Both the position numbers and the translations under genes were made by a program. The notes beneath the pieces were generated by a model that saw only the letters and a program-made list of their open reading frames with translations, was not told the DNA's origin and did no database searches. A stretch of 64,000 nucleotides of DNA, from the NCBI RefSeq assembly GCF_021134715.1, contig NC_060027.1, forward strand, positions 5,332,001 through 5,396,000, given 5' to 3'. Source of the stretch: Daphnia pulex. Its lineage: Eukaryota; Arthropoda; Branchiopoda; Diplostraca; Daphniidae. The stretch's first letter is position 1; every line of letters starts with the position of its first letter. Positions 1 through 40,349 of the stretch are shown here, piece after piece.

Positions 1-2114
1 TGCTGCTGATCACGGCTGAACATGTGCCGTTGACAGGTGCGGCGTTCATAATTTAGTCTGTACTTAGCATATAATATAAGGAAATAAATGATGCTGATTG
101 AAAAATCACCGAAAAACAGATACGATAATTTCGATAGAGCAATCTAATGTTCACTTATCTGGCCACATTTTGCGCTGTAAAGCGACTCTTTGTTCTACAG
201 GATTATTGACATTGTCATCGCTGATATCTATGGGACTTGGATGAATGCGAGAGATTGCGAACAATTATGCGACAATTCAACGTCTTACACGCGTTTCTAT
301 TGTGCGATTTGATCGATTGATAATCGAGGTATTATATTATTGCGAATGACGAGTGTCGGAAACAAGAACTTCGTCATCGTCACGCCGAGTGTTTAACCAT
401 CGATTTCCTTCAGTTCCCTCCACCCTTTCTCGTGCTTAAAACATTAAGAAGATTAAGAAGAAGGCGACGATACTGAAATGTCGTGATAGTCATACAATGA
501 CGGCCCGCACCACTAACCAGCTTTAGTCGTTTCTTAAAATGTCCAAAGAGTACCAGTAGCGTCATCTGTGTCTATCCCCACGTATCTCCACGACCAAGTT
601 ATATACATACATAGCGAAAATGTCGAGATGAAATTTAAGAAATTGTATGTTTTCAGATTTTTTTTTGAAAAATTTGCGTGATCGTCCGTAACATTTTGCC
701 CGGTTGAGCTCATAACTTCTCGCGCCTTAAAACAAAAATAAAATAAAACAAAGCCGACAAATTTGTCAAAGAGCAAATAGAAATAACCCGAAAAAAAGAA
801 GGAACTACACAATAAGAATGGCAAGCGACAACCTTAAAAATTCTTAGTGTTTCACAAAATTCCGCACTGCATGTATACACCGTTTTCCCCTTTGTTTTTG
901 GACGTTAAGATTCGCTTTAGAGTTGACCGGCCGAGCATGTAGCAGGAATGCCAACGATTGAAAAACCATCCGGAACTGATCTATTTACAACCGAGGCGCA
1001 TAGACCAAATAAGGAGGTTCCTCTTCTCGAAACCCCGCAAGTGGTAGTCCTCTTATTGGCTGTCCCCCTTTAAGTCAACGCTATGTGACCGGGGCTTTCG
1101 GGAGGCCGTAAAAGCGAAAAATTATGGGCAACGTCATACTACCCCCCATAGCTCCTGCGCCTAGCCTCTTCCTCTGTTGGGGCTTTATTATTGGCGACGG
1201 AGTTTTCGAAGAAAAATTAGTTGGATGTCCTAACGAACCTTTGACACGTTCGAATGTTAATTCGACAGGAGTTGAAACTGGCCAGACACTCGGCAAGATT
1301 TTTTTGTTTGTTTTTTGGCATTTCGGAAAAAAGGTATTCACTTCGAAGTTCGTGACCAGACATAGCGAGCATAGCCGTTGAACGCATTGCAGAGTCAAAT
1401 GACGCCATACGAGCCTGGAACGTTGCCAACAACGTTTGGCGTATTGGCATGGCGCAATGTATATAATAGCTATAGAAATCGACTACCTGGTAAAGTGCTG
1501 CTCTTTTGTGGTTTCCTATGGCCATTATTAATGAATTTTCAGCAGCCGACCTTCACGCGTGACGATGTAGCATAAACAACAAGTGAATCGCAGGCGAAAA
1601 AACAATGGCAACAATTCCCGTACGTGTAGATTTCTGCGTGGCCCATTCTGGCGAATGTTAGAATGGCATTGAATCTGCGCGCTGACGGGTCAGCGCAGAT
1701 GAATAGGAAGCCCCAGCAAACGTTCGCCGCCAGTCTTGCGTCAAGTAGCACCTGATATCGATTGAGGCAGCCTTTAAGTGCAACAGGGAACACGTATGGT
1801 AGCCTCCTGCGAAGCTTATTTGCAGCCCCCCTTTGCTTCTCCTTCCTTTTCTTTTTCTTTTATTTTATGTAAATCGGTATAGGTACCGACATCGTTCAGT
1901 TGTATCGCTAGAATACTCCGGCTCAGTACCTATTCAAACACGAGTGCATGCTCGTTGCGTCGCTCTCCTCAATTTTGTCGGTACACAAATTATTTGTCTT
2001 GAATGTGCTGCTGCTGCTGCTGCCGATGGTTAATGGAATAATGAGCTAGTTTCCCGTCAAAAAAACACACACACACAGTTAACTGGAACATTGCCAGTTG
2101 ATCCAACTTGAGTG
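1..2114. other. No gene recognised
   Basis: Only short overlapping open frames are present, none with a recognisable domain, signal peptide or convincing splice structure. A CTG/GCT trinucleotide run lies near 2006-2022 and a CA run at about 2065-2079, just before the first SINA-like gene. The end of this stretch presumably holds that gene's promoter and 5' UTR, but I cannot place a start site. Confidence 0.5.
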
Positions 2115-2872
2115 ATGGACAGAGGTGACAACCGAGTGAATATTGACGCGCTTTTGCGGTTGTTCACTTGTCCAGGCTGCGGGAATCCTGCCAACAAGCC
2201 GCCGCTATTCCAGTGCGTCAAAGGTCTGTATACATTCTGAAGCATCTGTGTATAATCTTTATTATATATACTATAGATATTTATAAACTAAACAAGGGGG
2301 GATTTTCCGGTGGTGATGTATAAAAAAGATGACTCTGTGGAATTTGAGAATCACAGAAAAGAAAGGTGGCGCCACACATTGATGATGATTAGCCGCCCAG
2401 CTTTGATTTTTTTTTTCTCTCCTTTTTCCCTTGACTGAAATTTCAGGTCACGTAGCCTGTTCCCAGTGTTCCGTCAAGTGCCGAGGCTCATGTCCAACTT
2501 GCCGTCAACGTATGACGACCGAACGCAATTTTTGGATGGAGGAGGCCTCCACTTTCATCACATTTCCCCTTCAAACAGGTAAAGTTTTTCCCAGTGTATT
2601 TTTTGGGGACGAAGAAGCAGTTCCAGCAAAACAAGTGATTAACCTTACATTGATGGACGAAACTTTTGCCGTATTCGAACATATGTAGACTGTTTTTTTT
2701 TTGTCTCCTAGAGGGTCACCAATCGATGGTGAAACAAAGAAACGGCGCATCATTTCATTACGTAGAGCGCAACTCGTCATTTTTGTGCTTGGAGCAAGCT
2801 AGCTTAATTGAGTTGAGCAGTCGTTACTCGGAAATGGAAGACGAAGCAAGAAATAAGGACAAGTCGGGGTAG
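2115..2872 (+). CDS. Truncated SINA/SIAH-like RING protein, copy 1
   Basis: Three exons are proposed: 2115-2223, 2447-2578 and 2712-2872. Their phases agree and all borders are GT/AG; together they give 133 aa. Exons 1-2 encode a C3HC4 RING of the SIAH type, with ligand pairs CPGC, then CVKGH..CSQC, then CPTC, followed by RNFWMEEASTFITFP, which matches the linker to the first SIAH zinc finger. SIAH proteins are E3 ubiquitin ligases of about 280 aa. Here the frame then enters an unrelated basic tail (residues about 81-133), so the SIAH zinc fingers and substrate-binding domain are absent. It is either a RING-only paralog or a decayed copy. It lies 1.2 kb upstream of a second SINA-like gene on the same strand. 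RING identity is solid; the third exon is less certain. Confidence 0.72.
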
Positions 2873-4086
2873 CCGGGATAACCACAGTCAAGTGGAAGAC
2901 CTTCACAACGAGACAACAGCAACGCCTGCTGGTTCTTTTGAGACGATTTAAACTACAAGAACATTTGTAAAACATTTGAAACTGTCCAACAGAAGAAAAA
3001 AGGCGACCCCTTTGGAAATTGACGATTTTCCTGATCCATTTGGGAACTCGCAATTTTGACTTTCCGTCTCTTGCACGTTCAGTCTAGCGAGGACTTGGTT
3101 ACGAAGGAAATTGAACGAATAGCCAAACGATGGCATCGGTCCAATTTTCTTTAAGAAACAAAAAATAACCCTAAATAAAAAATAAAATAAAAAAGTGATT
3201 TCCAAAAAGCCTAAATTACTTTGGCGAGCTGCCTAAAACATAACACCAACTATCAGGACACGATTTAGCGCTCAAGGAGTGTCGTAGCGTTGCTTGGTGG
3301 TCACTTTCTCCTTGAGTAGGTAAATCACGTGAGCACCGTGGCGTGGCTTATAACATGGCTTCCTACTCTCTAGTCGTCAACGAAGCTTATATTAATTAAT
3401 CTAATGCGCATCTCTCGAGTGAATTCATCAATCTTACAATTATTTAAAAGTGAACAAGTTGTACATTAATGTCCGATATAGCACGACAAAGTTTCTGCGT
3501 AGAGTTGGTGTGTACTTTGTCTATTTTTAACTAATAAAACAAACAATTTTACGGTCCATGTGATTTGTAATTCTCCTTTCTTTTGTGTTCATTTTCGCTA
3601 TGCGGTCTGTAGGAACCGATAGAAATGGAATGAAGCATTGAAGATTAGCGAGAGCAAACCCAGTGCGACTCCATTTTTTCTCATCCCGTGTTTCTTAGCA
3701 TCAGCACTACGCCAACTATTTCCATATTTCGACGTCGACCGGGCCTCGCGCAGTCGTCAGTGGTTTGCCCAGCAGGCTGGCCGCCAGATCCGTCAGCTCT
3801 TCTCGATCTATATTTTTCGCGCTATACTCGCATCTCGTCAAGTTTCAAGCAGTAGTGTGTGTGGCTGTGGTTGGATGCGAACTTTTCCTAGAATACTAGA
3901 TGCGCAGTGCGAGTGCTAATCACAAAGTTGCTTGAACGCAAGACAAACAACCCGGCCGCAGGTGAACGGCAGTCCGCCAAACATAAATTCCGGACGGATA
4001 CAAACAAACACAAAATCCATAATAGACAAAAACCAACAAATAAAATCAGCATCAATCTAAATTGATCATCAATTATACAGTGCGAG
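2873..4086. other. Intergenic, probable 5' UTR of SINA-like copy 2
   Basis: No supported coding sequence. A 93-codon open frame at 3638-3919 has no recognisable features and lies just before the next start codon, so 5' UTR or promoter is more likely. Confidence 0.4.
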
Positions 4087-13900: not shown

Positions 13901-16461
13901 CCCTTGGCATGCCCTCCAGAGTTGAGATACACCTTAACCTGATCGGGGGACACGTCGGAGTTGTGGATGTTGTTAGTCGTCGAGCTGAAAGTGTAGCGGT
14001 GTGGCTTTCGGCCCACGTAACGCGTCGGTTGAGCCAAACTATGGAAGTTAGTCAGAAGAACACACAGAATAGAAATGCGCGTGAACGTGCGAGCCAAAAA
14101 CAACATACACCAGTCTACTCTAGATTCTAGCTCGTCTATTATGATTCACGTACATACCTGGCGAACTGCGGACCACACAGAGCGTAGCAGCAGTTGGCGC
14201 CACATCCCCGCGAGAAGGGGTTAAAGCCGCCGCGGAACTTGCCCGTTACCTGTGCACATGAAGGTTCCAAGGAAATGGCAATTCTTAGATCAGTGTCATA
14301 CTGCAATAGTAAAGAAATCAATAAAACGCAAACCTGTTCATTGGTCGTCCTCCCTCTGGCAACGAGGACTACATGAAACCCAGCGAGACCGAAAACGGGC
14401 ACGGAAAGGATGCCCACCAGCGTGACAAGGCAGAGTGAGACGACAGTGGGAACCTGAGTGAGACGGTCCTTGTGCTGGATCAAGAAATACGTCGAGAAGC
14501 TAAAGACAGCCGCCATGTGCAACGACAATGAGATGAGGAAAAGGAAAAAGTAGCGGTAATTTCGGCGGCCAATACAATTGTTGACCCACGGACAGTGATG
14601 ATCAAACGTCTAGAGCAAGTCCCATTCATTAGTGTTTGTTGCAAGAAAAGATCAGAGAAATATTCGATTCTTTACCTCGACACACTTATTGCAAACGGAG
14701 CAATGTGAGCACCGAGGCGGTCGGTAGAATTGGCAAGTGACGCACCACTTCATCCGCACTGTCACTCCGTTAATATCCACATTTTTATACAGAGGAGCGC
14801 GGAAGTCGTCATCTTTGTCCTCGTCAGGAGACGCTAGAAAAACAAATTTAAATCAAACCAATAATGTCATCCGAAACAATCAAAGACAAAAGCACTCGAC
14901 AAACAGAGCACTTCAAAATAAGGAATTGATGAGTCTCAAACAAAGTTATTTTGCGTCAGTTAATAACCACTAACAAGCCGCACTCGAGTCCCACATTCAC
15001 AATTGATAAAACATGTTGCCTGAAGCTACCCTGTCATACCTTTATATGGCTATATGATTTATTAACAAATGATTTGTTTGGCTTTACTTTATCTCAGTAA
15101 TTACGAAAAAAAAATCCCGTTGACCTTCCACAAATCAAAAACAAATATAGCCGGTTTCCTTGTTAGTGAAATGTTCACACGTTACCTTTTGACGAATCCC
15201 CTCAACGACTTTTTTTTACTTCCAGCCATTTCCAAATGTATAACCACATCTATGTAAACTGAATATGCTGCCAGGTTAGAAGTGATTTCCGTCAACACGG
15301 AGGTGAAAAACCATTAGACTATATCCCTTTCCGTTAAGTTTCGCCCAGCCCAACTTCCTCCCATAGTCTGATCTGTTCAGGCGACTGTATTTAATATAAT
15401 ACTAACAATGCAAGAAGCAATAAAGCTAAATTTTCTAATAAAAAACTGGAAGGATAATCACTGATGTAGATTGGACCACACAAAAACATTAAAAAGACCA
15501 AATCTAGAATATGTTCAAAATACACTTGTAATATACCATATTTTCGTTTTTACCGATGCCGAAAAGTAGTCAATACTTATCAATTTAGAGTTGCCTTGTG
15601 TCTTCACCAGGGAGGTGACCCACCATAAACGATAAAAAAACTACACAAAAGCAGGAATTTTCTTATCTCTGATACATTTCAAGCATTCTTTCGTGAAAGT
15701 CAATTAGTATTCCCGGCGATAAGAATCCCACTCATTTTTGACACATTGACATTTATGTGATATAATCTATTAATCTGTCACTGTAGTAGCCAACTTAAAA
15801 CATTTTGAGTTAATTTTTCCTACTTCTTAACAAGAATAAACTTTTGTTAGGTTAAGAGCATAAATTTCTCAATAATTAAATGTTAGATTACAGTATTACG
15901 CTATTAATTTGAAGACATTTTACTCAATTCTGGTGTAAAATGCCAACATTGGATGACACTACAATAAAGAAAGGTAAATCTTGAACTGAAATGAACAAAG
16001 TATTATCATAAAGGAAAAAGGCCTATGAAGCAGAAGGTTGATAAACCTCACTTGTTGGAACACTTCAATCTTTTACAGCCTAAGAAGTGTCTAGCCACTT
16101 AAAGACTACCAAACGTTTGACATGTGTAAGGAAGTATAAATTAAATTTACCTTTAGGAATTACTCCAGCATCCATAAACGTTGCTAGGCTGAAGTTGGCT
16201 ATTACAAAGAGAGTCACCACAGCTTCACATAGAGGTATAAGTATCGAGACATTCTCGTAAAACCACATACATCTACAAAGTGAACAAGCAGAACATTAAA
16301 ACACATTTCTTAGTTTAATAAGGGATAAGTAAGTTATTAAAGATTTGACAGAATTTACAACAGAATACTCACGGAAAATAAAAGAAAAGAGCTGTTGTAA
16401 TGAGTAAGATTGCCCAGGCGAAGAATGCTGGGAGCACCTTAGTGCCCTTGCATCGAACCAT
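10973..16461 (-). CDS. ZDHHC5/8-like: ZDHHC5/8-type protein S-palmitoyltransferase
   Basis: Eleven exons (16461-16373, 16272-16151, 14833-14676, 14609-14334, 14249-14158, 14038-13867, 12424-12275, 12210-11900, 11744-11658, 11560-11328, 11205-10973) give about 640 aa with consistent phases. There are four hydrophobic segments, with a cysteine-rich DHHC domain between the second pair: [20 protein letters not shown], then [11 protein letters not shown] (catalytic Cys129). The family adds palmitate to cysteines of membrane proteins. [11 protein letters not shown] and a YVGRKP motif are hallmarks of the ZDHHC5/8 subfamily. A long Ser/Gly/Pro-rich cytoplasmic tail (about residues 260-640) ends in EISV, a class I PDZ ligand. 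Exon 7 has two in-frame acceptors 6 nt apart (start 12430 or 12424). Confidence 0.95.
11871..11893. repeat. ACAG microsatellite
   Basis: A short tetranucleotide run (ACAGACAGACAGACAGACAA) in the intron between exons 8 and 9 of the palmitoyltransferase. Confidence 0.8.
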
Positions 16462-22572: not shown

Positions 22573-23580
22573 TTATGACAAATCTGTAAATAGAAGAAAA
22601 AATTCAGTTAGGATAGAAACAATTTAGAAAGAATAAAAGTATATCTTACAAGATGGTGCCGAATTGGCCTCGAAACGCTTCTGTAGCTGGTCCTGAGTAA
22701 ACTTAACAAATGCGTCGTATTGCTCGGCGAGTTTAAGTGTCAATACTCGATCATACTCCTCGCGAATTTCTGTTTCGCGCTCTTTTAACATTCTTTCACA
22801 AATGAGGCTCACCTGTAAAACAACAAGGGAATGTTACAAAATCTCAACTACAAAACACTTGTTTCTTCATCTCTTGAAAATATGTTTGAGGAATTGGAGG
22901 ACAGAATGCCGTACATGACACATCCTGTTACTATGATACTCTATTTTTAATTTATGGCATGTGCTGGAGGAGGCCAAGCTAGACAACAGCAGAACGCTGA
23001 GTCTAGCAAAGACGCATGATACTGGAAACATCAAGCTCAAAGAAAACCAGCACTACCAACATGTAACACTAGAGAATCACAAACTGTTCCTACCTGCTTA
23101 AACGTGAACAAAGGTTTCTCTTTAGTTGAGCAGCTTTGACCAAAATTATTGGAGGAAGCCAGGGCCATCAATGGCGAAGGTGATCGAGGGCATGAGGCAG
23201 GAGATGCTGGACTGGTAGGGCTCTCACACATCAAACTGTCTTGATGCTGGCTGCTCATGTGCTGAGATTGATTTTGACTGAAATTAAGCTGTTTACGACG
23301 TTGAAAGCGTTTAACTTCCTCACGAACATTCGCCAAGATTTGCTCTAAAGTAGAATAACGTTAGTTAGAAATCATTCTGGTAAGACTTGGTTATGAAATC
23401 TCACATACCTGGTGTAAGCTTCGAAGAGACATCGCCAAAAGGAGAAGGTTCATGGCACTTTGTTGGTGGAGTTGTTGGAGGCATGCAAATTGGCATACAT
23501 CTCCTTCGTTTCGGTGTACGACCACCGGGACTGTGCACAGGATCAAATTCCAAACTACGCTTCAAAGTAACACAAGCCAT
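22573..23580 (-). CDS. akirin: Akirin
   Basis: Exons 23580-23409, 23344-23094, 22812-22650 and a tiny last exon 22583-22573 join to 198 aa. Conserved landmarks are the N-terminus [14 protein letters not shown], the bipartite basic nuclear signal (TPKRRRC), the segment [17 protein letters not shown], and the C-terminal coiled segment [26 protein letters not shown]. The last exon adds only Tyr-Leu-Ser, reproducing the conserved SYxS ending of akirins. Akirin is a nuclear adaptor. In flies and mammals it links NF-kB factors to SWI/SNF chromatin remodelling, and its C-terminus mediates nuclear import of proteasomes. A Ser/Pro-rich middle (about residues 85-125) varies between species. Confidence 0.97.
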
Positions 23581-24377
23581 TTTGATTCAACGACTTTCTT
23601 TCTTAGGCAAGTTGCTATGCTATGCTTGAAAAGCAACAGAAAATAGTCAGCTGAATTACACAGGATGCGTTAAACGAATGGCTATCAAAAGATGCTAGTT
23701 CACAACAGATGCAATTGGAAATCCAATGAACACAAATTCGTCGTAATATATATGATAGACTGATGGATGAAATGGGATAATTCTTCGAAGAAATTTACCC
23801 AGCTTCGTCCATTAAGACAACTGCAGCTCTCTTGGTTTTCTATTGGTTACAAAAGTAGCTTTAGCCCTAGGGAGAGTGGTGAACAGCATTGCCAGTTTTA
23901 TGTAGAGCTTCAATCCCCTAAGGGCAATTCCAGCCACGTCGACGGTCGACATTCGACAACCGAAGCCGATAAAAATTCATTTTTCCAGTTCATTTTATTA
24001 TTCAGATGACCAAGATCGCAAGTTCACTTCTAAATTTACAAATTAGAACAAGTAAGTAAAATTCTAATGACAATTAATTTTCAGTAGAATATTTGTTGTG
24101 AGAAAAAACGTTTGAAGTCCGCGTCCGTAAAAACATAATTTTTGTTTTCTTGTAGGTGCTGTTTTGATAAAAAAGAGAAAATTATACCTGGAATCGAGCT
24201 AATAATTAGTTGTGTGATTTATGGCAATTAATTCAAGTGTTGCTATTTTTATTTGACATGTGTTAAAAAAGTGGCGTCGATGTAAACTGTTTGACATGCC
24301 AAAAGATCCAGCAGACCGGCATGTCATGTGACAAGTGGTCACCCTTTTTTAGTTAATTTAGTTAAATTCTATCGGTC
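23581..24377. promoter_or_regulatory. Divergent promoter region of akirin and NUS1
   Basis: Start codons of the two genes point away from each other across about 800 bp with no coding evidence, so it should hold both promoters. No TATA box stands out. Confidence 0.5.
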
Positions 24378-25392
24378 ATGGGGGTTCTTAATGTGCTCTA
24401 TGTGATTCTTCATTTTATTATCACATATATTCACAACATTCATGTGGCGTTTAGTGAACTCATTGATCGTATCAAACCAGTTGTTAAGGATCGAACTTAC
24501 CTCTGGCCAGCAGACTGCCATGTTTTGCTGAATGCCACGACTGTGAAATTAGGTGCAAATATAAAAGATGAACGTCTTCTCCTTCAAACTATTGGAAGTG
24601 ACCTGAAACTACTTCAAAAACTTCCCATTCATGTTGCTTGCTTGTTTACTGAGAAGGATGTAAACATTGATAGAATAATAACTATTGTTGAGTGGTTTGT
24701 TAGTATGGGTGTCTATTGCATCAGTCTCTATGATCATGAAGGTATTTATTTATTACCTGTTTAATTAGTACCTTATTTTTCTAGCAAATTTGATTGATTC
24801 ATAACTGTTAAAATTTTAGGTTGTCTGACTAGCTGTCATGATGAAATCAAAATCAAATTGAAAGGTGTTGCTGCCAATTTTCGCAATGGATTGAAATCCA
24901 AATCTGTTGCTGTTCATAAAGGCTTTGTAACAAAAGAATTCTACAATTTGGGTAATTGGATAGTATAGTAGTGAAATTCATTTTTCTAATTATGTTTTTT
25001 CTTTAAAGATTCTATCAATGTTTTCATCATGAATCAAAATGATGGCAAACCTATGTTTGCCCAAGTTACAAGGCAAATAGTGGGTGAATTAAATTATTGT
25101 CAAATTGATCAGGGTGTAGTGGAAAACACCATGAATCAATTCTACCCCAAAGACCCAGAGTTGATGTTACAGTTTGGCAGCTTACTGTCTAACACTACCC
25201 TAGGGTACTCCCCATGGCATCTTAGACTTACTCAGATGATGTAAGAAAAATATTGATAATTTTACTATCATTAGAATTTTATTTACCTTTTATCTTTACA
25301 GGCGTGTACCCAATCACATGAGAATACGCGTTGACCATTTAGTTTCAACCATGCTTGAATATGGTTCATGCCAACAGCGTTACGGGAAATAA
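24378..25392 (+). CDS. NUS1: NUS1 / Nogo-B receptor, regulatory subunit of dehydrodolichyl diphosphate synthase
   Basis: Four exons (24378-24741, 24820-24951, 25009-25240, 25302-25392) join in phase to 272 aa. The N-terminus is hydrophobic (VLNVLYVILHFIITYI), the membrane anchor. The rest is a degenerate cis-prenyltransferase fold lacking the catalytic Asp motif, as in all NUS1 proteins. The C-terminus is QQRYGK, matching the RxG motif that NUS1 contributes to the active site of the heteromeric enzyme. With DHDDS it makes the long-chain polyprenyl diphosphate used for dolichol and N-glycosylation on the ER membrane. The catalytic partner DHDDS lies in this same window, at 30676-31885. Confidence 0.95.
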
Positions 25393-25536
25393 TTAAATGT
25401 TAATAAAACAATTTCTGACAACAGTTCCAATTTGTATTAACTTCCTATTACATAAGATTATAATTAACTCCACTCACACACAGTATATTTATTACTTACG
25501 CACGAAACATTTTCTCATTCTTTACGCCCGAATGTA

Positions 25537-28351
25537 CTATTTCCTCCTATCTTTAGAACTAGCTCTTTCTTTCCCTTTACTGCCCATGGATTTTCTATCA
25601 TTAGAACGCGATCTCCGTCTACTTACAGATCGCCTACGGTCACGAGATCTGCGGCGACTGTTGGAACGTTTCCGTTCTCGAGAACGTGATCGGCGTCTAC
25701 TCTTAGGGTAATCTCTTGATCGTCTGCTAGAATATTGACAATCCCTAGATCGTGAACGTTTTCTTCTTTCGGAAGAACGTGATCGTTGACGAGAACGACT
25801 ACTTCCTGCGTTCGACCGATCTTGAGATTTTGAAGTCATACTATTTTCCCTAACCACAGAAATCTCCCTTTTGCAGTCAGAAATTTTTTCACTCTTCACA
25901 GCCGAATCTTCTTTTTCTGAAGGACTCGAAGTTTCCGCATGGCCATGACCTGTAATAATACCACAAAATTAAAATTCTGCACGATGAAAAATTATTTAAA
26001 AGAACAAAAAAAAAAAAAACACACAAACTTAAAACAGGTTATAAACGGAAGCAATTTGCAACTGTATCGAAAAAAAAAAAAAACAGGTGTGGCAAGATAT
26101 AGAAAGAATGTTTCACTTGGGGAAGGTGGTTTATTTGGCTTACCATGAAGACATTTATTATTGATGTCCTTGTCTACCTTTGTGCCATCTTGCAGTACTT
26201 TACTAAAACTTTCTCCACTGCTCTTATTTTTCTCCAACTCTACCGAGTGCGAAGGCTTTTCAGGGTGATTTAAATCTTTCTCAACCTGAGAAAACCGGTC
26301 GCTTGCCCGAGTTTCCTCCATCCGTTGCTGCTTCTCGTAGTTCTTACCCTTTAAAAGCAAACAATAATTAAAAAAACTATTTAAAATGTTAAAACCAACA
26401 TAAAAAATCTTACGCGCAACAATTCAGCTGTCCCATCATCAAATCCACTAGTCCGGTTCACCTTCGCCGATTCATGGTCGCTGTCGTCGCCTTCACTGTC
26501 ACTGCCATATTGATCCAAACCTAAACAAACATATTCAACTAGGCCATCAATCTATATTACCGCTTACATAATTTACTACGACCCATCCAACAATCATCCG
26601 AAAACAATACTGCATTGACGGTATGCATCACTTTGCTATCGACAAAGCGCATCAACAGTAGATCGCACAGAAACATATACTCGACCGTTGATTGAAAAAA
26701 GAAAAAAAGAAATGATAAAAGAAACTTACCAAGCTTTCGGGTCAATGATTTTGAAGACAGGGGGGACTGCACTTGTCGATTCTTGACTGTAGTCGATATA
26801 CAACCAACTTATACAACTTTTACCAATAACCTTCTCTACTAAGATTACACATTTCTTCATCAAACCACCTCGACTAAACTTAATTACGAACACTTTCCAA
26901 GCAAACTATCAGGATCTTATCGTTCTATAATAATAGATTAGAGCTATAACTAGATTTAACTAAGGCCAGACTTGCCCTTTGCTCGTTGAGAAGCTTCCAC
27001 AGCTGCTGATCGAATTTCTTCTGTTGTGACCTCCAATAATATCTCTGTCATAAGTTGACGAATCCTTACCATCTGAAAGGAGAATTGTTAGTTGAAATCG
27101 AAACTTGTTGGAATTTTCACTATTTACAATATCCTCAAGAGTTTGCGCGTTGGGAACAGCTGTTGGCGTCGACTCCTTGAGAGGAGATTTGATCTCATCG
27201 GCTGTGTCATCTTCTTCTTCTTCTTCCGAATCATCGAAACGACTGCGAGTAACTGCCAAGTCCCCTTGACCTCCAGATTCTAATTCTTTTTTCCGTCTCA
27301 ACTCTCTTTCTAAAAGAAACTTTTCTCGCTCTTCTTTTTTTTGTTTTTCCTTTTCCATCTTTTCGAGACCTTCTCGGATCCAGGCAGGTAGATTTTTGCG
27401 CTTAGAAGCATCTATCGAAGGCATCGAGTTAAAGGATGATGCTCCAAGACTATCTTCGTCAGAACTGTTTGGCCTGGCCGAAGGAGGCAGTGGAAGCAGC
27501 GGAACACGCGGAGTGAAATTCATGGAAGGCGAAATCGTTGAAAGGAATGTCTGTAATAAATTTAGGTCAAATGTATTTTGACACAAGAATGCAAAATTCT
27601 AAAACACACAAACCTGGGAAGGGCCAAGTGCTGTAGGAAGGTTTGCAGCTCCTGGGTGGGTGACCTGGTTCAATAAAATGAAAGTTAAAATTTTTTGTAC
27701 AAAACTTGTTAGTTCTTGATTTGCACTGATGTTCCTCAGTCTCAATAAATCAGTTTGAACTACCAGCTTAATGTCTAGTAAATATTTTTCACCATAGGAG
27801 TATATAATACATTAATGTATTCACAATATATCTAATTACTTGAGGAAATGAATGTCTGGGAACATATGGTCCATGTTGAAGAGGCCAGTTGTTAGTTTGC
27901 TGATTCAAGGATTGGGATTGCCAACTCCAATCTAAATTATATTTTACATTAGTTGCTGGCATTCTATACACCAAGTTATACTTTGTGTTACCAGAAGCAG
28001 AAGAAGTAATTTCATCTTCTTTCTCTACATCCATAGGTGCTTCACCACTTGTCACATTTGAATCTGATGGCTGTAATTCTACTGCTGGTGATGAGCGCAA
28101 TAAATTAATATTGCTTTGGTAGTGACTTTGTGCCATTTCAGGAACATTCAAGACTACAGTTTCATGTACTTCTTTCATTCGAATCCACTGCTGAGCCAAA
28201 GAGGCCCAATCCACTAAAAAAGACAGTAACATATAAAAATGCAATTCAGCTAGAGCGGAGTTTGTTAATTACCAAGTTCGTGATTCATGTTTTGGTATGC
28301 GGCTGCATCCAGAGGTATCTGGTTCCCCCATTGATTACCTTGCGCCCACAT
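25537..28351 (-). CDS. PNISR: PNISR-like arginine/serine-rich splicing-associated protein
   Basis: Nine exons (28351-28273, 28213-27840, 27664-27614, 27550-27128, 27072-26961, 26771-26730, 26520-26414, 26348-26144, 25949-25537) give about 601 aa. The start MWAQGNQWGNQIPLDAAAYQ and VDWASLAQQWIRMKE match the PNISR N-terminus (human: DWAALAQAWIAQRE). The family signature NLPAWIREGLEKMEKEKQKK is present, as is MTEILLEVTTEEI. The C-terminus is an RS domain of many RSRSR/RRRSR repeats, typical of nuclear-speckle proteins. Exon 6 is only 42 nt; it is needed to keep frame and aligns with the family. Its stop lies 144 bp from the NUS1 stop on the opposite strand. Confidence 0.92.
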
Positions 28352-28988
28352 AGTTTTGCAGTAAAGTTTTATATTACTCGGAATGAAGAACAGTCAACTA
28401 TAGCTCTGCGAAATCGAATCGTATCTCCAACATCAGTAATGCTGCACAAGAAAGAACCAAGTTACACATATGTTCTCATGTACGCTACTTTTAGGGATTA
28501 ATTTACGACTTCAATCATCACAACACTTGTTTTCCAATCGAATTGCATTAGTCGAATAAAAAGTAGTGCAAACAAATTTGCATTTGTGACTGACAAAATC
28601 TTTTCGTCTGCTTCCCTCTTACTACTCTTTGAATTCCGACATTGTCAAATTTTTCGAACATATTTGTTTCCCTACCCTATCCACCCTATCATGTATTTTG
28701 CCGTTTACTTTCAACTTTTTAACTACTAGTTTTTGTCAGAAAACTCTAAATAGAAGTATACAAATTTTTCAAATGTTACATACGTTGGACGTGACTAAAG
28801 AGATACAGCGGTGGGGGTGGGCTAAGCGGGCTAAGTCCTACGTGGTATATCAAATAACTCTTGTTTTGGTAAAAAAGCTTATCTCTCTTGAAAAGAGACT
28901 CGTGGCAGCTGAAGTTACCAGTTTTATCAAACATTTCCAGTAAAACTCTCACTCTGAATTCTTCGTTCCTTCGAGTCGTTTGTTCAAA
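28352..28988. promoter_or_regulatory. Divergent promoter region of PNISR and CPOX
   Basis: About 640 bp separate the two divergent start codons. No conserved protein is encoded, so it should carry both promoters and 5' UTRs. Confidence 0.5.
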
Positions 28989-30550
28989 ATGAAGTGGGCT
29001 CAACCAATCGCTGTTACTTTACGTACGATGCGTACGTTATCTACGCTGGTAACATGTCACGCACGTCACAGACGAATGCTGATCAGGTAAAAATAATCAT
29101 TAATTCAAATTTTCCGTGGATGTTATTTAATTTTCCAAAATGGCAACTAGATTCGCCGGACTCGGATTAGGAGCAGCTTCCTTTACAACGATCTTTGCAG
29201 CTAGCAGTAATAATACGAACGTGGTCGATCCCTCGTACGATGCTTCCAAGTTTATGGCAGAGCCGGTTACTCCCCGTTCGACTCTCATCAAAGACAAAGA
29301 TGATATGAAAGTAAAAATGGAATTGTTCATCATGAAGATTCAGGTACATACTGTTTTCACTTTTTGGATGAAAGGAATATTTAACGTTTGAAATTTCGAA
29401 ATTACAGGCAGAATTTTGTCGCGCGCTTGAAAATGAAGAGGACCCATCAAAAAAATTTTTCGTTGATCGATGGACGAGATCAGAAGGAGGTGGGGGCGTT
29501 ACTTGCGTTATTCAAGATGGTAAGACCTTCGAGAAAGCTGGCGTCAACGTATCGGTGGTTCATGGCGTTCTCCCGGTCGATGCTGTTCGCCAAATGAAGG
29601 CTCGCGGAAAAGATTTAGTAGGAAAAGAACTTCCATTTTTCGCTGCCGGAATTAGCTCGGTTATTCATCCCAGCAATCCCCACGTACCCACTGTCCATTT
29701 CAACTATCGGTATTTCGAGGTTACCCAAGAAAATGGCGAAAAGATGGTATGTTTTAAAAGTCGTACGGCATAATCGGTATTTTTATACACGCTAACGGTC
29801 TCCTTATACAAGTGGTGGTTTGGTGGTGGTACCGACCTTACCCCGTATTATCTAGTCGAGGAAGATGTGCGCCATTTCCACTCTACGCTTAAAAAGGCAT
29901 GCGATTCTCACGATCGTGGCTATTATCAAAAATTTAAAAAGTGGTGCGACGATTACTTTATGGTCAGCCATCGGAACGAAAGGCGAGGAGTTGGAGGTAT
30001 TTTCTTCGACGATTTTGATGGAAAATCCAGTGAAGATTGCTTCGAGTTTGTCAAGTCTTGCGCCGAGTCCGTCATACCGTCATATGTTCCCTTAGGTAAA
30101 ATTATAACTTTTATATGTATTTTGAAACGATTTCCATTAGAAATTTCAACGAATTATCATTCTTTCAAGTAAACAAGCACAGAAACGACCCTTACACTAG
30201 CGCGGAACGAGATTGGCAACTTCTAAGACGCGGACGCTACGTCGAGTTTAACTTAGTCTATGACCGTAAGTACATTTTACAAAAAAATTTACCCACATTC
30301 ATATTACGTTTGCGTTCGTGCCAGGTGGAACCAAATTTGGACTTTACACTCCCGGTGCTCGTATCGAGAGTATTCTGATGTCTCTTCCAGTATATGCCGT
30401 GAGTTATAACCAAACATGTCTTAAGACCCAAGAAAACTCATTTACTAAATTGCAATTTGCTAGAAATGGGAATATATGCACTCACCACCGGATGGGACCC
30501 CAGAGGCAAAATTAACTGAAATACTGAAAAATCCTAAAGAATGGATCTGA
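28989..30550 (+). CDS. CPOX: Oxygen-dependent coproporphyrinogen-III oxidase, mitochondrial
   Basis: Seven exons (28989-29086, 29151-29343, 29408-29746, 29813-30095, 30170-30265, 30325-30398, 30464-30550) join in phase to 389 aa. Exon 1 encodes an Arg/Thr/Ser-rich leader without acidic residues ([20 protein letters not shown]), a mitochondrial presequence. The mature enzyme shows the family blocks [34 protein letters not shown] and [16 protein letters not shown]. It decarboxylates coproporphyrinogen III to protoporphyrinogen IX in haem synthesis, in the intermembrane space. A poly(A) signal AATAAA lies at 30656-30661, 16 bp before the DHDDS stop codon on the other strand. Confidence 0.97.
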
Positions 30551-30655
30551 TTACGTCAACCTCAATTTTTCGCAAATTTAGTCTCAGATGTATTACTATT
30601 TTTTGTTTAACACCACTTGCTCTATATTCTATAAATTTTAACATAGATGGGTTAC

Positions 30656-30661
30656 AATAAA
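30656..30661 (+). terminator. Poly(A) signal of CPOX
   Basis: AATAAA about 105 nt downstream of the CPOX stop codon. It is the only canonical signal in the short gap between the two convergent genes, so the CPOX transcript probably runs into the 3' end of DHDDS. Confidence 0.6.
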
Positions 30662-30675
30662 TGGGTCATAAAGGT

Positions 30676-31885
30676 TTACGTCGCTTGTGTCAAAATATGA
30701 TTTCTAAATTGTGATTCTTTTAATTCCATTTCTGTTAGGAAATGTTCGATTCTTTCGGTATCCTTTGTGTTTGGCAGCGGTCTTGTAATGCAAGAATTCT
30801 TCTGAGCCTCCTATAGTAAACAAATAATGAGTCTAATACCTTTGATTTACCACATAACTGATTCGTTACTTTACCATAAGGGTTGGCAAATTTTTTTGGT
30901 AGTGAAGTATAGCTTTAGAAAGATCCCAAATTGTAAATTCGGGCCATAAGACGGGTGTAAAGTACAGGGTGCAGCAAGTAGTTTGCCAGAGAAGAAAATC
31001 ACTTAATCTCACTTCTCCTGAACTTCTTATTAAGAGATCAGGTTGGAGGGAATGACGAGTATAAAGACATTTTTGAATAAGGTCTTCATCAATGTCTTCG
31101 ATTTTCAAAAGATCCTCTTGCACACCCCATGCAACTTCACTTATAGCATGTGTCATTTCTTCTCTTGCTGAAACAACAAACAAACAAACAAAACACAGAA
31201 AATAATTAAACATAGTCATAAAAAGGCTTCACAGTACCATGTAAATGTTGTTAGGGGATTAGTATGATAAATAATTACATGTGTATGAAAATGCTATATT
31301 CAAAATAGCTTTCGTGTTCAATTTGGTGGATTCCATTGACTCAACAACTAGCTTTTGTAAATCAGTGGGAAGTAAAGCCATGTTACCAATTACCCTAATG
31401 CCAATTCCATGCTCATTCAGTTTATCCCTGTTAAAAAGAGAGATAATATAGTTTTCAGTCAAAGTCAATTCTAAAGCTGTTTAGAATATTACTTTTCTTC
31501 CAATAATCGTTTGAACTTTTCCCTTGCAAGAGACATGAGCTGATCCACCTCTTCCTGAGAACGTCGGAAATTTTCAATACTAAAGGCATACACAGTAACT
31601 TCTTTTATTCCTAATAACAAACACCACTGCAACACTTCAGTCAATTTATCAAATCTATTGGAATTAAAAAAATAATAATATCAGAAATAGTAACATCATA
31701 AAATATTTATAACAAGCTGTTTACCCTTTTGAATGCCCTTCTATTTTCTTTACTCCACACTTATTAGCAAATCTTCGATTACCATCCATGATAAAGGCGA
31801 TGTGTTTAGGTATGGCTCCACATTTTAGTACATTCACTGCAAGTGTTTCATACCATCTTAATTTTGATTGTTGAACCCAAGACAT
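30676..31885 (-). CDS. DHDDS: Dehydrodolichyl diphosphate synthase catalytic subunit
   Basis: Five exons (31885-31725, 31654-31493, 31427-31279, 31167-30875, 30810-30676) join in phase to 299 aa. The UPP-synthase motif [13 protein letters not shown] has catalytic Asp34. Further motifs are [22 protein letters not shown] and the diphosphate-binding block [15 protein letters not shown]. It is the catalytic chain of eukaryotic cis-prenyltransferase, extending farnesyl diphosphate with isopentenyl units for dolichol; activity requires NUS1, encoded about 5.3 kb away. In the second motif the usual R-T/S-G-G-E reads RSSGE. It is convergent with CPOX, with stops 125 bp apart, and divergent from the exonuclease gene upstream. 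Confidence 0.97.
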
Positions 31886-32311
31886 TTTTCTCTAACTTTG
31901 GTTGTGATTTAACTTTTAGTAGCAGCAAGTCATCGAGGCAATAGAAAACAGGGTTTTAAGACTCAAGATTGTGTTCGTATTAGACCTTTGAATAGCCCTT
32001 AAAATTACAACAACACCGCCGGTCAGATGACGTTTACCTTCCTCAACTTACAGCGATGCATGCACATCTTAACATAAAATTATACACATAGTGATTTACC
32101 AGAGATTATTACAAATAAACCAGAAAAATCTACAATGAAAGAAATATTAACCATGCATTGACCATTTTTTCATTCGGATTTTCCCCTCTTAAAAACTTTA
32201 TAAAATTCTACATTCCGACAACGTTGTTTGATGGCTGTCAAACATCATAACACTTCAGCAGTCGATGCTAACACGTGCACACTGTCGGAAACGCTGAAGT
32301 AATAAAAAAGA
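31886..32311. promoter_or_regulatory. Divergent promoter region of DHDDS and REXO5-like gene
   Basis: 426 bp between divergent start codons, with no coding evidence. It should drive both genes. Confidence 0.5.
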
Positions 32312-34553
32312 ATGTTTGCAGTGAAGGTAGATCAACCAGCCGAAAAAAAACCTCGGTTAGATGAAGAAGATTTTCAGGCTCTAAAAGATAAACTGAAAGC
32401 AAGAAAAAAAATTTTTAAAGTATTTGCTTTTTTAAAATTATTACATCTCATGCCTAATCTTTTAAATCTGGATTTAGACTTTCCCTTTATTCAAAATAAT
32501 TGAATCAGGCACTAGTGCAAGTGTATCTACCCCCAAAGATTCACGTATTCCAATTTCAGTGAAAGATGTTCAGGATCTAATACTACTTTCAGTTTCAGGA
32601 GAAGTACGACATTTGAATAGGCAAGTGTTGATGTTTTTCATAAAGTATTGGTTGTTTAAAAACTTCATTTCATTAGGTGGTTTCTACTTACACAATGGCA
32701 AAAGATTTCTCAAACAGCAGTACTGGTTCTTGAAAATGTGTCTGTTAATGACATTGAAAATAATCAAGATTTGTTTCCTCGTACTCTTGGAATTTTTGAG
32801 GATGGAGTAGAATTGCTCAATTCTAATAATGCTGGACTTAGTTTGAGTGTTGCGTTGGCTTATTCACCCATCACCCATATGTTAAAGAGTAGAATACCAA
32901 AAGGTGTATTGAGCTCACAATTTATTTCTTTATAATTTTCCCATAGTAATAATGTTTAATTATCAATATCTAGTATACACATCCCTGAAAGAAGCCCTTG
33001 ATAATGGTACTTATTGCAAAATTGTTTATGAATGAATGTTTTAGCAATAATTTATCCCAATAGGACATATCTTCAGCATCACTGATTTCACTGAAGAAAG
33101 TTATCAAGAAAAGGATACATCGGGAGATGATAGCAAAAAGCAAGACCAAACAGAAATGAATGGGCATACCAAGGGTTGTAGTAAGCCTGAATTAATGTTG
33201 AATGCCTTGCAACTGATCACTGGTTACTACCCATTTCCGGGACATGGGCGTGCAAAAGAATTTGTTTTTACGAAGGACAGATATGAACCAGTCACAGAAA
33301 ATTCCCCGATGTTTGCCATAGATTGCGAATGGTGTTTATGTGTTGATGGTGATTCACACGTAGAATGATTTTGTCGAAGTATTATTTAACTAATTATATG
33401 ATTCTTTTTAGGTACGAATGGTTTAGCCCGTGTAGCCATCGTGGATGAAAACTTGGATCCTGTCTACCATGCATACGTTCTTCCTGAGAAGCCTGTTAGG
33501 GATTACGCAACGAAATGGTCAGGCATTACCCCTGCACTTCTCAGGGGAATCCAAAAAAGATTGTGTGATGTTCAACAGGATATTAGGAAGCTTTTACCAC
33601 CTGACGCAATCCTCGTTGGTCACTGCCTTCGTGGAGACTTATTAGCTTTAGAAGTAAAAGGAGCGAAAGCGTTTGTATTAAGGATATTGAATTTATTTAA
33701 TTGTTGTCTTTCTTCCCGTGTAGTTATTCCATCCATATATTATCGATTCAGCCGTTATCTATAATATGACAGGCTGTCGACACATGAAGTCCAAGCTGCA
33801 GTTTTTGTCGAAAGTGTTTTGCGACCGTGACATTCAATCGCTTGATCGTATGGGTCATGACCCCAATGAAGATGCTTCTGCTTCCATGGAGCTGGTGTTA
33901 TTAAAGATGGGAAAAGGATTGAAGTATGGAGACTCATGTTCAGGTGGTTGCTGGGATGGTCCTTCTAAAGAGAAGATACTGAGCGTAATGTCCGACTCAA
34001 TAGTAAGTCTTCTTATTTTTTATTTTAAAATTTCGAAATGCCTGTGTTTCATTTATACGTTTTCTTGAAGTTCCATTCCAGAAACAAGTCAGAATCGGAA
34101 TTGGATCTTCAAGACGTCCTTCTTATGAAATTTTTTACTTTCGTACAAAGTCTCGACAAAAGTACTGTTCTGATAACACAGCCAACATATGACAAGATCT
34201 ATCGCCCTAAAACACCGTTACATTCAGGATTATTCGGTAATGTTAAAGCCGACTCCGTAGAGATTGTTCCTGAAACGAAATTGCAGAATATTGTTCCTAC
34301 TCTAGAGTCTAGAATGAATAAGGATCTGTTGTATGTCCACATGTCTGTTGCTGACGAAGAGAAGAAGGGCAATGAGCATTTAAAAAAATTAGACGATGTC
34401 ATTGCAGATGTTTATGATAAGCTCGCTATGCGAGGAATAATGATTGTCATTTTCGGAGGTAAATCAAATCCCATGGAAAATGGAATGTGCATGATTCGTG
34501 TTAAAAAGCCTTGTAGAGAAGATCTCTTGAGAGACCATTTTCCCAACCAATAA
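32312..34553 (+). CDS. REXO5-like: REXO5-like RNA exonuclease (DEDDh family)
   Basis: Eight exons are proposed: 32312-32419, 32509-32620, 32677-32903, 32974-33006, 33064-33348, 33412-33653, 33724-34002 and 34089-34553. Exo motifs are FAIDCEWC (Exo I), LVGHCLRGDLLAL (Exo II) and LDRMGHDPNEDASASMEL (Exo III, with HD..ED). REXO5 trims 3' ends of snoRNAs and rRNAs in the nucleolus. Exons 2-8 are phase-consistent (547 codons). Exon 1 (AEKKPRLDEEDF, a nuclear-signal-like start) ends in phase 0 while exon 2 needs phase 1. An A8/T5 homopolymer at the end of exon 1 makes a one-base sequence error likely, though another first exon is possible. Intron 2 begins GCAAGT rather than GT. Confidence 0.88.
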
Positions 34554-37700: not shown

Positions 37701-40349
37701 ACTTGGGCGAGAATCAACTGACAAACATTGAAGATGCCGGTCAAGCGCCTTCTCTAAGAGTACTTTATCTCTACTCCAACAAGATTGACACGATTGCTCC
37801 TAAAGCATTCCGGCGTTTAGGCGCACTAGAATATCTCGACCTTCGCTGGAATAATCTGCAAGTTTTAGCTCCTGGTGCGTTTCACGTTTCCTCTGATCGG
37901 TGGCAGCTACGTTTACGTGCCAATCAACTAAGTTCACTAGAACAGGCTTTTTCAGAAGGTGCAATTTGTTATAATTACATAAGATAAAAAGTACTAAATC
38001 AAAACCTAACCGGATTTACTCCTAACAGATAATATGCCGTATCTTGTCGACCTAAGTTTAAACAACATCGCATCCCTAACAGACAACATTTACGGACCTA
38101 TAATCGACTCGGCTATTTTGGAAGGTTCAAAATTCTATGTGGCGGGCAATCCTATCGCGTGTGACTGCAGCCTTGCCTGGTTAGTAAAAAACGCACGACT
38201 ACTATCCATCGTGGTTGGTGCGAGGTGCGATGGTGATGGCTCACCCATCGCCGATCTTGGCCTTGACGATTTCCGCAAATGTCCTCCTCCAAGACCATGG
38301 AAATCTCAGTTGGACAAGACTTTAGCTGAGTTGGCAAAAGATAACGAAACGAAGTAGAACTTACCATTTACGAGAATTGTCAGTAGACAATCAAACAATG
38401 GCTGAAGACGTTGATGTCCTGTAGTGATTATCTTGTGGAATACAACCACCAGCAAATCGGCATGCGTACCTAAAATTCATTAGAATAACAAAATTGTTTT
38501 GGAATCAATAATATGTAAATAACCACCTGTGAATACTGGAATGTCCATGGGGACGGTCGCCGTATATGGCTTATTCAGACGAACTCCAAAATTTCGTTCA
38601 CCACTCAACAGAAGAAGGATAAAAACTCCAATGTGCATTAGTCCAACGCGAGCTAAGCAAAAAATTAAATATCGGATTATCATATTATTTCTTCAGCCGT
38701 CTAGGTATAGCGACTTACACTGATCAGCACGAGAATCATTGAGATGAAATAGAATAGGAACTAATACATCGAGTACGTCACTCGATTTTAGGACATAGTA
38801 CAGGAATTTCTGTTATGAAAACAATTAATTGAAAAACGCATAGTCTGAAAGAATTTGAGAAGACAGGATAATTACCTTGTTAAAATCGCACACCTTCCAG
38901 AAAAACACAAGTAATTCTTGGTGATTCTGAACTTTCTTATTAGAATTAGGCAGGTATGTTTGTATCAAAGGATTTTTTAGGAGACGAGTGAATCCATGAA
39001 GCATGAAAGCAAAGTCTTCTTCTCGGTGAATGCGCGACAAATAATTGATGAACAAATTTTCGTGGATCATTCCGCTCTGCTGCACCAATAAATTAAAGCA
39101 ACAAATGTACTTAAACTGAATGTTACAAATAACTTAAAACTGATTTATACCTCGTCAATAGTATTCAATTGCGAGCATTGAGCAGATGAATCCCAATCAA
39201 GAGTAACAATTAGGAGTTGTAAAGCTGTCTCTACCAAAGGTTCACGACTGTCGGTGAACAGTAAATGATTATATGGTAAACCGAGTCCAACGGGGTCATA
39301 TGCACAGAGGACATTCAAAAGTGAAGTAAATAAGGGCAATGCATGGCGATTCTCCGGTGATGTGAAATGTTGGACCCATTTGTTAGGAGCCTCACTTTCA
39401 CCTAAAACATCGATTTTAAAATGTAATTTGAAATGTATAAAAATAACAGAAAAACTACTTACTCCCAGGTGGATGATACATTGCTTGACTAAAACAAGTC
39501 AACAGAAGCTTCAAAATCTCATTTCTATTATTATCAAGGCGTGGATCATGTGGAGCAGCATGGGCAAACCCAACACCAGCTTCCCATATAAATTCACAGC
39601 TATCTATTGAATGGAGATCTTCATGTTTGTCCTACAGGATAAATTCAAGTTACAGAAAAGAAACCTAAATTTTATATAATGGATATAACTTACAGGTCCA
39701 AATTTTTTACTAGAATAAACTGTGAAATCTGGGCAAAAGAGAAGATCACAAAGTGCATTTAGTAAAGATTGGGCAAGGGGAACAGATTCTTCTGCATGGC
39801 CCTCTGGATTTTCACCATCATCTTTGAACTGTTGCTTAGAGCTACTGGGTAAACTAGACCAGAAAAAACTACGCCAGTCAGGATCTTCGAAGATGTAAGG
39901 AAGCAGTCTTGTGAGTATGCGAACACAGTTGATAACTAGGATAGAAAATAAAGTCATATGAAAATAAATGCGGAAAACTTGCATTTAAAGATTACTTTAC
40001 CAGTACTATGTTCTTGCTGAGTAGCACACGATGAGTCTGCAGCACTTACTAGTCTTTCAACAGCTTTGTAGCATAATGTTGCTAAATTTGATGGACATTC
40101 TTCTCTTAGAACACGTATTTCTGTAGCAGGAATTAATGTAAAAACATCTTGGATATTTGTGATGCTCTCTGACCAAAACTGGGACCAGAAAGTGTTATCC
40201 GAAGGATCAATGGGCTTCATTTTCATAAATTAATATCGAAACGTTAAAGAAAAAACAGATTTTTAAATCTTTTGAATTCTGACCTGTGTTTTTGATGTAA
40301 GTTGAACAACAGCTTTACGGAAGTTGAGTTTTGTGTCAGCATTACCCAT
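34734..40349 (-). CDS. HID1: HID1 (HID1 domain-containing protein)
   Basis: Seventeen exons join with consistent phases to 856 aa: 40349-40284, 40214-40001, 39935-39694, 39631-39463, 39401-39151, 39079-38876, 38809-38719, 38652-38527, 38469-38365, 36826-36662, 36594-36425, 36317-36254, 36192-35930, 35367-35281, 35205-35075, 35014-34856, 34797-34734. It matches HID1 throughout: N-terminal MGNADTKLNFRKAV with a myristoylation glycine, LPYIFEDPDWRSFFWS, YDPVGLGLPYNHLLF, FVNYLSRIHREEDF-like block, RVGLMHIGVFILLLLSGERN, GTLVGLLPVPHPILIRKYQA and MWFRTYMWGIIYLRNVDPP. HID1 acts at the trans-Golgi in dense-core vesicle and neuropeptide sorting. The middle (exons 12-14) is variable and acidic. The 1.54-kb intron between exons 9 and 10 houses an opposite-strand gene. 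Confidence 0.97.
36884..38357 (+). CDS. Secreted leucine-rich-repeat protein nested in a HID1 intron
   Basis: Four exons (36884-37303, 37374-37616, 37694-37958, 38029-38357) join in phase to 418 aa. Residues 1-23 form a signal peptide (ITAALLVILLTTAPVDSQ). A basic and Thr-rich low-complexity segment follows (about 24-85), then a cysteine-containing N-cap (CPPEL..LPCTCRDEL) and about seven LRRs, for example VLNLGENQLTNIED and LRVLYLYSNKIDTIAPKAF. A C-terminal LRRCT cap is recognisable as NPIACDCSLAWLVKNAR..C..C. There is no transmembrane segment, so it is probably secreted or matrix-bound. The whole coding region lies antisense inside one HID1 intron: its ATG is 57 bp past one HID1 exon and its stop 7 bp before the next. 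Exact LRR subfamily unknown. Confidence 0.9.

Follow-up and report, generated by a model that had tools for sequence, protein, structure and literature searches.

In a 64,000-nucleotide stretch of the Daphnia pulex genome (hereafter the window; contig NC_060027.1, our C11:5332001-5396000), NUS1 and DHDDS, the genes for the non-catalytic and the catalytic chain of the dolichol-making cis-prenyltransferase, lie within 7.5 kilobases (kb) and are, in all probability, neutral neighbours placed together by chance. Their closeness is most likely a coincidence, because each gene has its own, separate start region. An earlier note on this DNA had pointed out that both subunits lie within 7.5 kb, with only PNISR and CPOX between them, and had proposed that this is due either to chance or to an ancient linkage maintained for the sake of co-expression. 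Its gene limits agree with ours to the base, both genes are intact, and the two intervening genes carry the expected domains (Table 1). As for the explanation, the chance alternative is the one that we consider probable, whereas the co-expression alternative found no support, given the separate outer promoters and the lack of a clear excess of words common to the two flanks.

The gene models were built from splice sites read off the DNA. NUS1 comprises four exons on the forward strand (24378-24741, 24820-24951, 25009-25240 and 25302-25392), which encode 272 amino acids with no internal stop, and DHDDS comprises five exons on the reverse strand (31885-31725, 31654-31493, 31427-31279, 31167-30875 and 30810-30676), which form an intact frame of 299 amino acids. 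In a search of the PDB, residues 75-272 of the NUS1 product match 6 distinct sequences of NUS1 chains with solved structures, the best matches being 9r0e_B (E-value 4.4e-21), 6w2l_B (6.9e-21) and 6z1n_B (1.3e-20), while Pfam gave no match at E <= 0.01. The C-terminus reads QRYGK, keeping the RxG motif. A motif scan of the 272 residues revealed no DGNR, as is to be expected, because NUS1 is the non-catalytic chain. Its N-terminal residues 1-19 are hydrophobic, with a marginal best 19-residue Kyte-Doolittle mean of 1.74 at residue 1. The DHDDS product matches 6z1n_A in the PDB (8.8e-104) and the Pfam family PF01255 (Prenyltransf, 1.4e-75). It exhibits D34, R37, R38, R85 and R98 at the human numbering, with DGNRR at 34-38, and a 15-residue segment at 205-219 (human numbering) that follows the pattern RxSGExRxSDFLLWQ; the roles of D34, R37, R38 and R85 in the human complex are described in PMC7573591. 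The RxG tail of NUS1 and the catalytic positions and the 205-219 motif of DHDDS are thus kept.

The genome searched comprises 133,188,837 bases in 13 contigs; the KAP4 assembly of D. pulex is reported to have 133.2 megabases (Mb) and 15,282 protein-coding genes (PMC12926508). The Prenyltransf domain was found at a single place, with 3 exon matches, all at DHDDS, and NUS1 likewise at a single place, with 4 matches; both are ordinary single-copy arthropod genes. The most likely assembly of the two proteins is the usual heteromer with cis-prenyltransferase activity. In it, DHDDS would provide the catalytic site, which the NUS1 tail with its RxG motif would reach across to complete, and the predicted product is the polyprenyl backbone of dolichol. 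As far as can be judged from sequence, this putative enzyme should function in much the same way as its human counterpart.

The arrangement of the block bears directly on the question of common regulation. The gene order is akirin (reverse), NUS1 (forward), PNISR (reverse), CPOX (forward), DHDDS (reverse) and an exonuclease-domain gene (forward), so that NUS1/PNISR and CPOX/DHDDS form tail-to-tail pairs. NUS1 and DHDDS converge, and the block that they delimit has their start sites at its two ends, about 7.5 kb apart; since the genes run towards each other from opposite outer ends, no shared promoter is possible. Each partner stands head-to-head with a different, unrelated gene, NUS1 with akirin and DHDDS with the exonuclease-domain gene, the distances between the start codons being 798 bases for akirin/NUS1, 638 bases for PNISR/CPOX and 427 bases for DHDDS/exonuclease gene. 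If neighbours share promoters, the sharing pairs are these three, and not NUS1 with DHDDS. The strand alternates strictly over the six modelled neighbours (23580-32312 of the window), with the tail-to-tail ends close together.

The 5' flanks of NUS1 (797 bases) and DHDDS (428 bases) were compared with each other and with 500 first-order simulations. They have 31, 12, 5, 1 and 0 words of length 8, 9, 10, 11 and 12 bases in common, counts that were reached in 46, 54, 41, 149 and 500 of the 500 simulations, respectively. The 11- and 12-base words are at the chance level, and altogether the excess of common words amounts to at most a weak tendency, none of it clear. Among 12 motifs tried, TATA and a short HRE core are the only ones present in both flanks, and each of them is found in the PNISR/CPOX flank as well. 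Judged on the promoters and 5' flanks, the two genes have no common promoter and no clear sign of a common regulatory sequence, and they are probably regulated separately.

Partner genes in the same genome served as a control for the closeness itself. Two families of complex partners, proteasome and chaperonin, gave 186 pairs of sites, none of them within 7.5 kb of each other: the proteasome family has 16 sites and 120 pairs, the nearest at 1.48 Mb, and the chaperonin family 12 sites and 66 pairs, the nearest with 18 kb between the starts. In this last pair, one site consists of a single match below the family cut-off. These numbers refer to exon matches merged into sites, with all sites of a family paired and members not assigned individually; non-CCT members are counted among the chaperonins, and some of the paired subunits do not touch each other. 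ALG13 and ALG14 constitute an obligate two-chain enzyme of the same dolichol pathway. Unlike NUS1 and DHDDS, they are unlinked here: ALG14 is at C9:2.809 Mb and the best ALG13-type match, taken as ALG13, at C8:8.998 Mb, and none of the 17 ALG13-type domain matches in the genome is on C9, the contig of ALG14. The controls together with the split of ALG13 and ALG14 therefore indicate that this genome does not, as a rule, keep partner genes together, and that the NUS1/DHDDS pair is an outlier among partners that are usually far apart.

This outlying position weighs against coincidence, and so do two further observations. For one named pair the chance of such proximity is only 1e-4 to 4e-4, namely 1.1e-4 by distance (within 7,508 bases) and 3.9e-4 by gene rank (within three genes, using 15,282 genes; PMC12926508), and the common flank words of 8, 9 and 10 bases somewhat exceed the simulation mean (31 vs 22, 12 vs 6.6 and 5 vs 1.9). 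However, the rarity of a single pair does not make for a small probability overall, because all partner pairs that could have been flagged must be counted. If 1000 to 3000 partner pairs are assumed to be of a kind that would have caught a reader's eye, 0.1-0.4 near pairs are expected per genome for 1000 candidates and 0.3-1.2 for 3000.

Several other explanations of the proximity have to be weighed against chance. Selection might keep the pair close through a shared chromatin domain or an enhancer that balances the two chains, and the occurrence of obligate partners of one enzyme inside a single 7.5-kb stretch, as well as the slight surplus of common 8-10-base words in their flanks, would agree with it. 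Yet the promoters are separate and outward-lying, each paired with an unrelated gene, we know of no role of PNISR or CPOX in dolichol synthesis, and neither ALG13/ALG14 nor any of the control pairs is linked, which makes selected linkage very unlikely. The idea of a tandem duplication, with the chains as distant paralogs that never moved apart, could appeal to the pseudo cis-prenyltransferase domain of NUS1 in the human complex (PMC7573591), but the best local match between the two products has 4 identical residues out of 21 (E-value 0.097), the genes differ in strand and are separated by two unrelated genes, and their exon splits differ by eye; we give this origin hardly any credence.

A neutral relic would imply that one ancient chromosome gave rise to the human 6q and 1p36-p34 regions, with the local order reshuffled since. 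Human NUS1, PNISR and AKIRIN2 are located on 6q, DHDDS on 1p36 and AKIRIN1 on 1p34, the 6q and 1p36-p34 regions share many gene families, and TENT5 has members on 6q and 1p36; here, akirin adjoins NUS1, and TENT5 is also found on C11, some 280 kb away from the window. According to a table in PMC6585022, NKAIN, KCNQ, RIMS and RSPO also have members on human 1p34-35 and 6q, and the same source argues against whole-genome duplication. We looked for six families with members on both human arms, fixed before searching, and only one of them was found on C11 (TENT5), as opposed to sestrin on C10, ARID1 on C7, taxilin on C3, NKAIN on C1 and Serinc on C3. The chance of at least one family falling on C11 is 0.41 with 12 chromosomes, and the background on this contig is 2 of the 16 sites of the proteasome family and none of the 12 of the chaperonin family. 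With 1 of 6 there is no excess and ancestral linkage is therefore not supported, six families being a weak test. It also counts against this explanation that the centipede Strigamia is reported to retain more synteny with amphioxus than any of the Pancrustacea examined (PMC4244043). Taken together, we regard a relic of an ancestral chromosome as unlikely, and it is very unlikely that the akirin-NUS1-PNISR-CPOX-DHDDS block represents a conserved pancrustacean (or older) neighbourhood that holds both chains of the enzyme together, in which case the vertebrate 6q/1p split would have arisen secondarily, when a single ancestral linkage was broken. Our preferred explanation remains chance, by which NUS1 and DHDDS would sit neutrally in a compact run of genes that are alternately head-to-head and tail-to-tail.

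Table 1. Features of the NUS1-DHDDS block (positions in the window)
Feature	Position	Strand	Basis
NUS1 (NgBR, non-catalytic dolichol cis-prenyltransferase chain)	24378..25392	+	exon model, PDB NUS1 chains
DHDDS (catalytic chain)	30676..31885	-	exon model, 6z1n_A, PF01255, motif positions
PNISR gene, PNISR-domain part	26963..28351	-	PF15996 8.6e-24, exon pieces joined by eye
Serine/arginine-rich exons	25537..26520 (upper limit approximate)	-	open frames; downstream of the PNISR domain part
CPOX (coproporphyrinogen III oxidase)	28989..30550	+	PF01218 2.2e-92, exon pieces joined by eye; ATG 28989
NUS1 promoter region, akirin/NUS1 inter-ATG stretch	23581..24377	.	akirin (-) ATG at 23580
DHDDS promoter region, inter-ATG stretch to the exonuclease-domain gene	31886..32311	.	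candidate ATG 32312 (+)

With respect to the neighbouring genes, the first exon on the akirin side is one that we take to be akirin from its start, and an exon further downstream has a match to Akirin-2 in 7nht (4e-17). On the other side, a later exon of the exonuclease-domain gene matches RNase_T (PF00929, 6.7e-06), and this exon and the candidate start codon probably belong to one gene. The PNISR domain exon closes with an in-frame TAA (KGKSGLS*), yet serine/arginine-rich exons continue downstream on the same strand (25537-28351 of the window, reverse strand); the likeliest reading is that these exons form the end of a longer PNISR isoform, a separate gene being less likely. Farther away, the window also encodes a DHHC palmitoyltransferase (14142-14609; PF01529, 6.4e-22) and, on the reverse strand, HID1 (39607-39984; PF12722, 7.3e-22).

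The main lesson of this block is that, in a compact genome, chance can produce striking neighbours, and for claims of co-expression the orientation and the promoters should be looked at first. The linkage, if conserved, would be one of the rare examples among animals in which partner subunits have stayed together. The shortened tail of DHDDS may be a more useful lead than the linkage. The Daphnia protein has 299 amino acids, compared with about 333 in human (the 6z1n chain has 340 residues, and M1 aligns to its residue 8), and the roughly 34 residues fewer are all in the C-terminal domain (30676-30900 of the window, reverse strand). In the human enzyme, a C-terminal helix-turn-helix joins two heterodimers into a tetramer (PMC7573591). 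The main alignment ends at human residue 282; a second match, between the last Daphnia residues and human 305-324, lacks significance (-2.0 bits). Intron 4 has 64 bases, leaving little room for a further exon. A loss of helix alphaC1 from the tail would be too strong a reading, since the main alignment runs through the human alphaC1 region, and only the shortening stands. On the basis of its shorter tail, the Daphnia enzyme may assemble differently from the human tetramer.

Among other genomes, the linkage seems to be absent in flies: if CG10778, the DHDDS counterpart in Drosophila, is, as we presume, X-linked, NUS1 and DHDDS are not linked there. Tango14 and CG10778 are the Drosophila orthologues of NUS1 and DHDDS (PMC7546278, PMC8287061), and a Tango14 mutation is among those from an autosomal insertion screen (PMC7546278). 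Between D. obtusa and D. pulex only modest rearrangement is reported (PMC12926508), and a linkage inside Daphnia would therefore mean little. The sources consulted on both genes, synteny, Daphnia and Drosophila contain, in the parts available to us, no description of NUS1-DHDDS linkage, and in viral contigs scanned for relatives of NUS1 and DHDDS, 7 and 13 stretches, respectively, fit the pattern, none of which encodes a relative. The human DHDDS/NUS1 complex (6w2l, 6z1n) is one of the nearest known counterparts, and the Daphnia pair shares with it both chains, the positions D34, R37, R38, R85, R205 and R211 of DHDDS and the RxG tail of NUS1. The two differ in the location of the genes, which in human, as the earlier note had stated, are on different chromosomes (NUS1 at 6q22.1 and DHDDS at 1p36.11, according to PMC13394563), as opposed to 7.5 kb apart in Daphnia.

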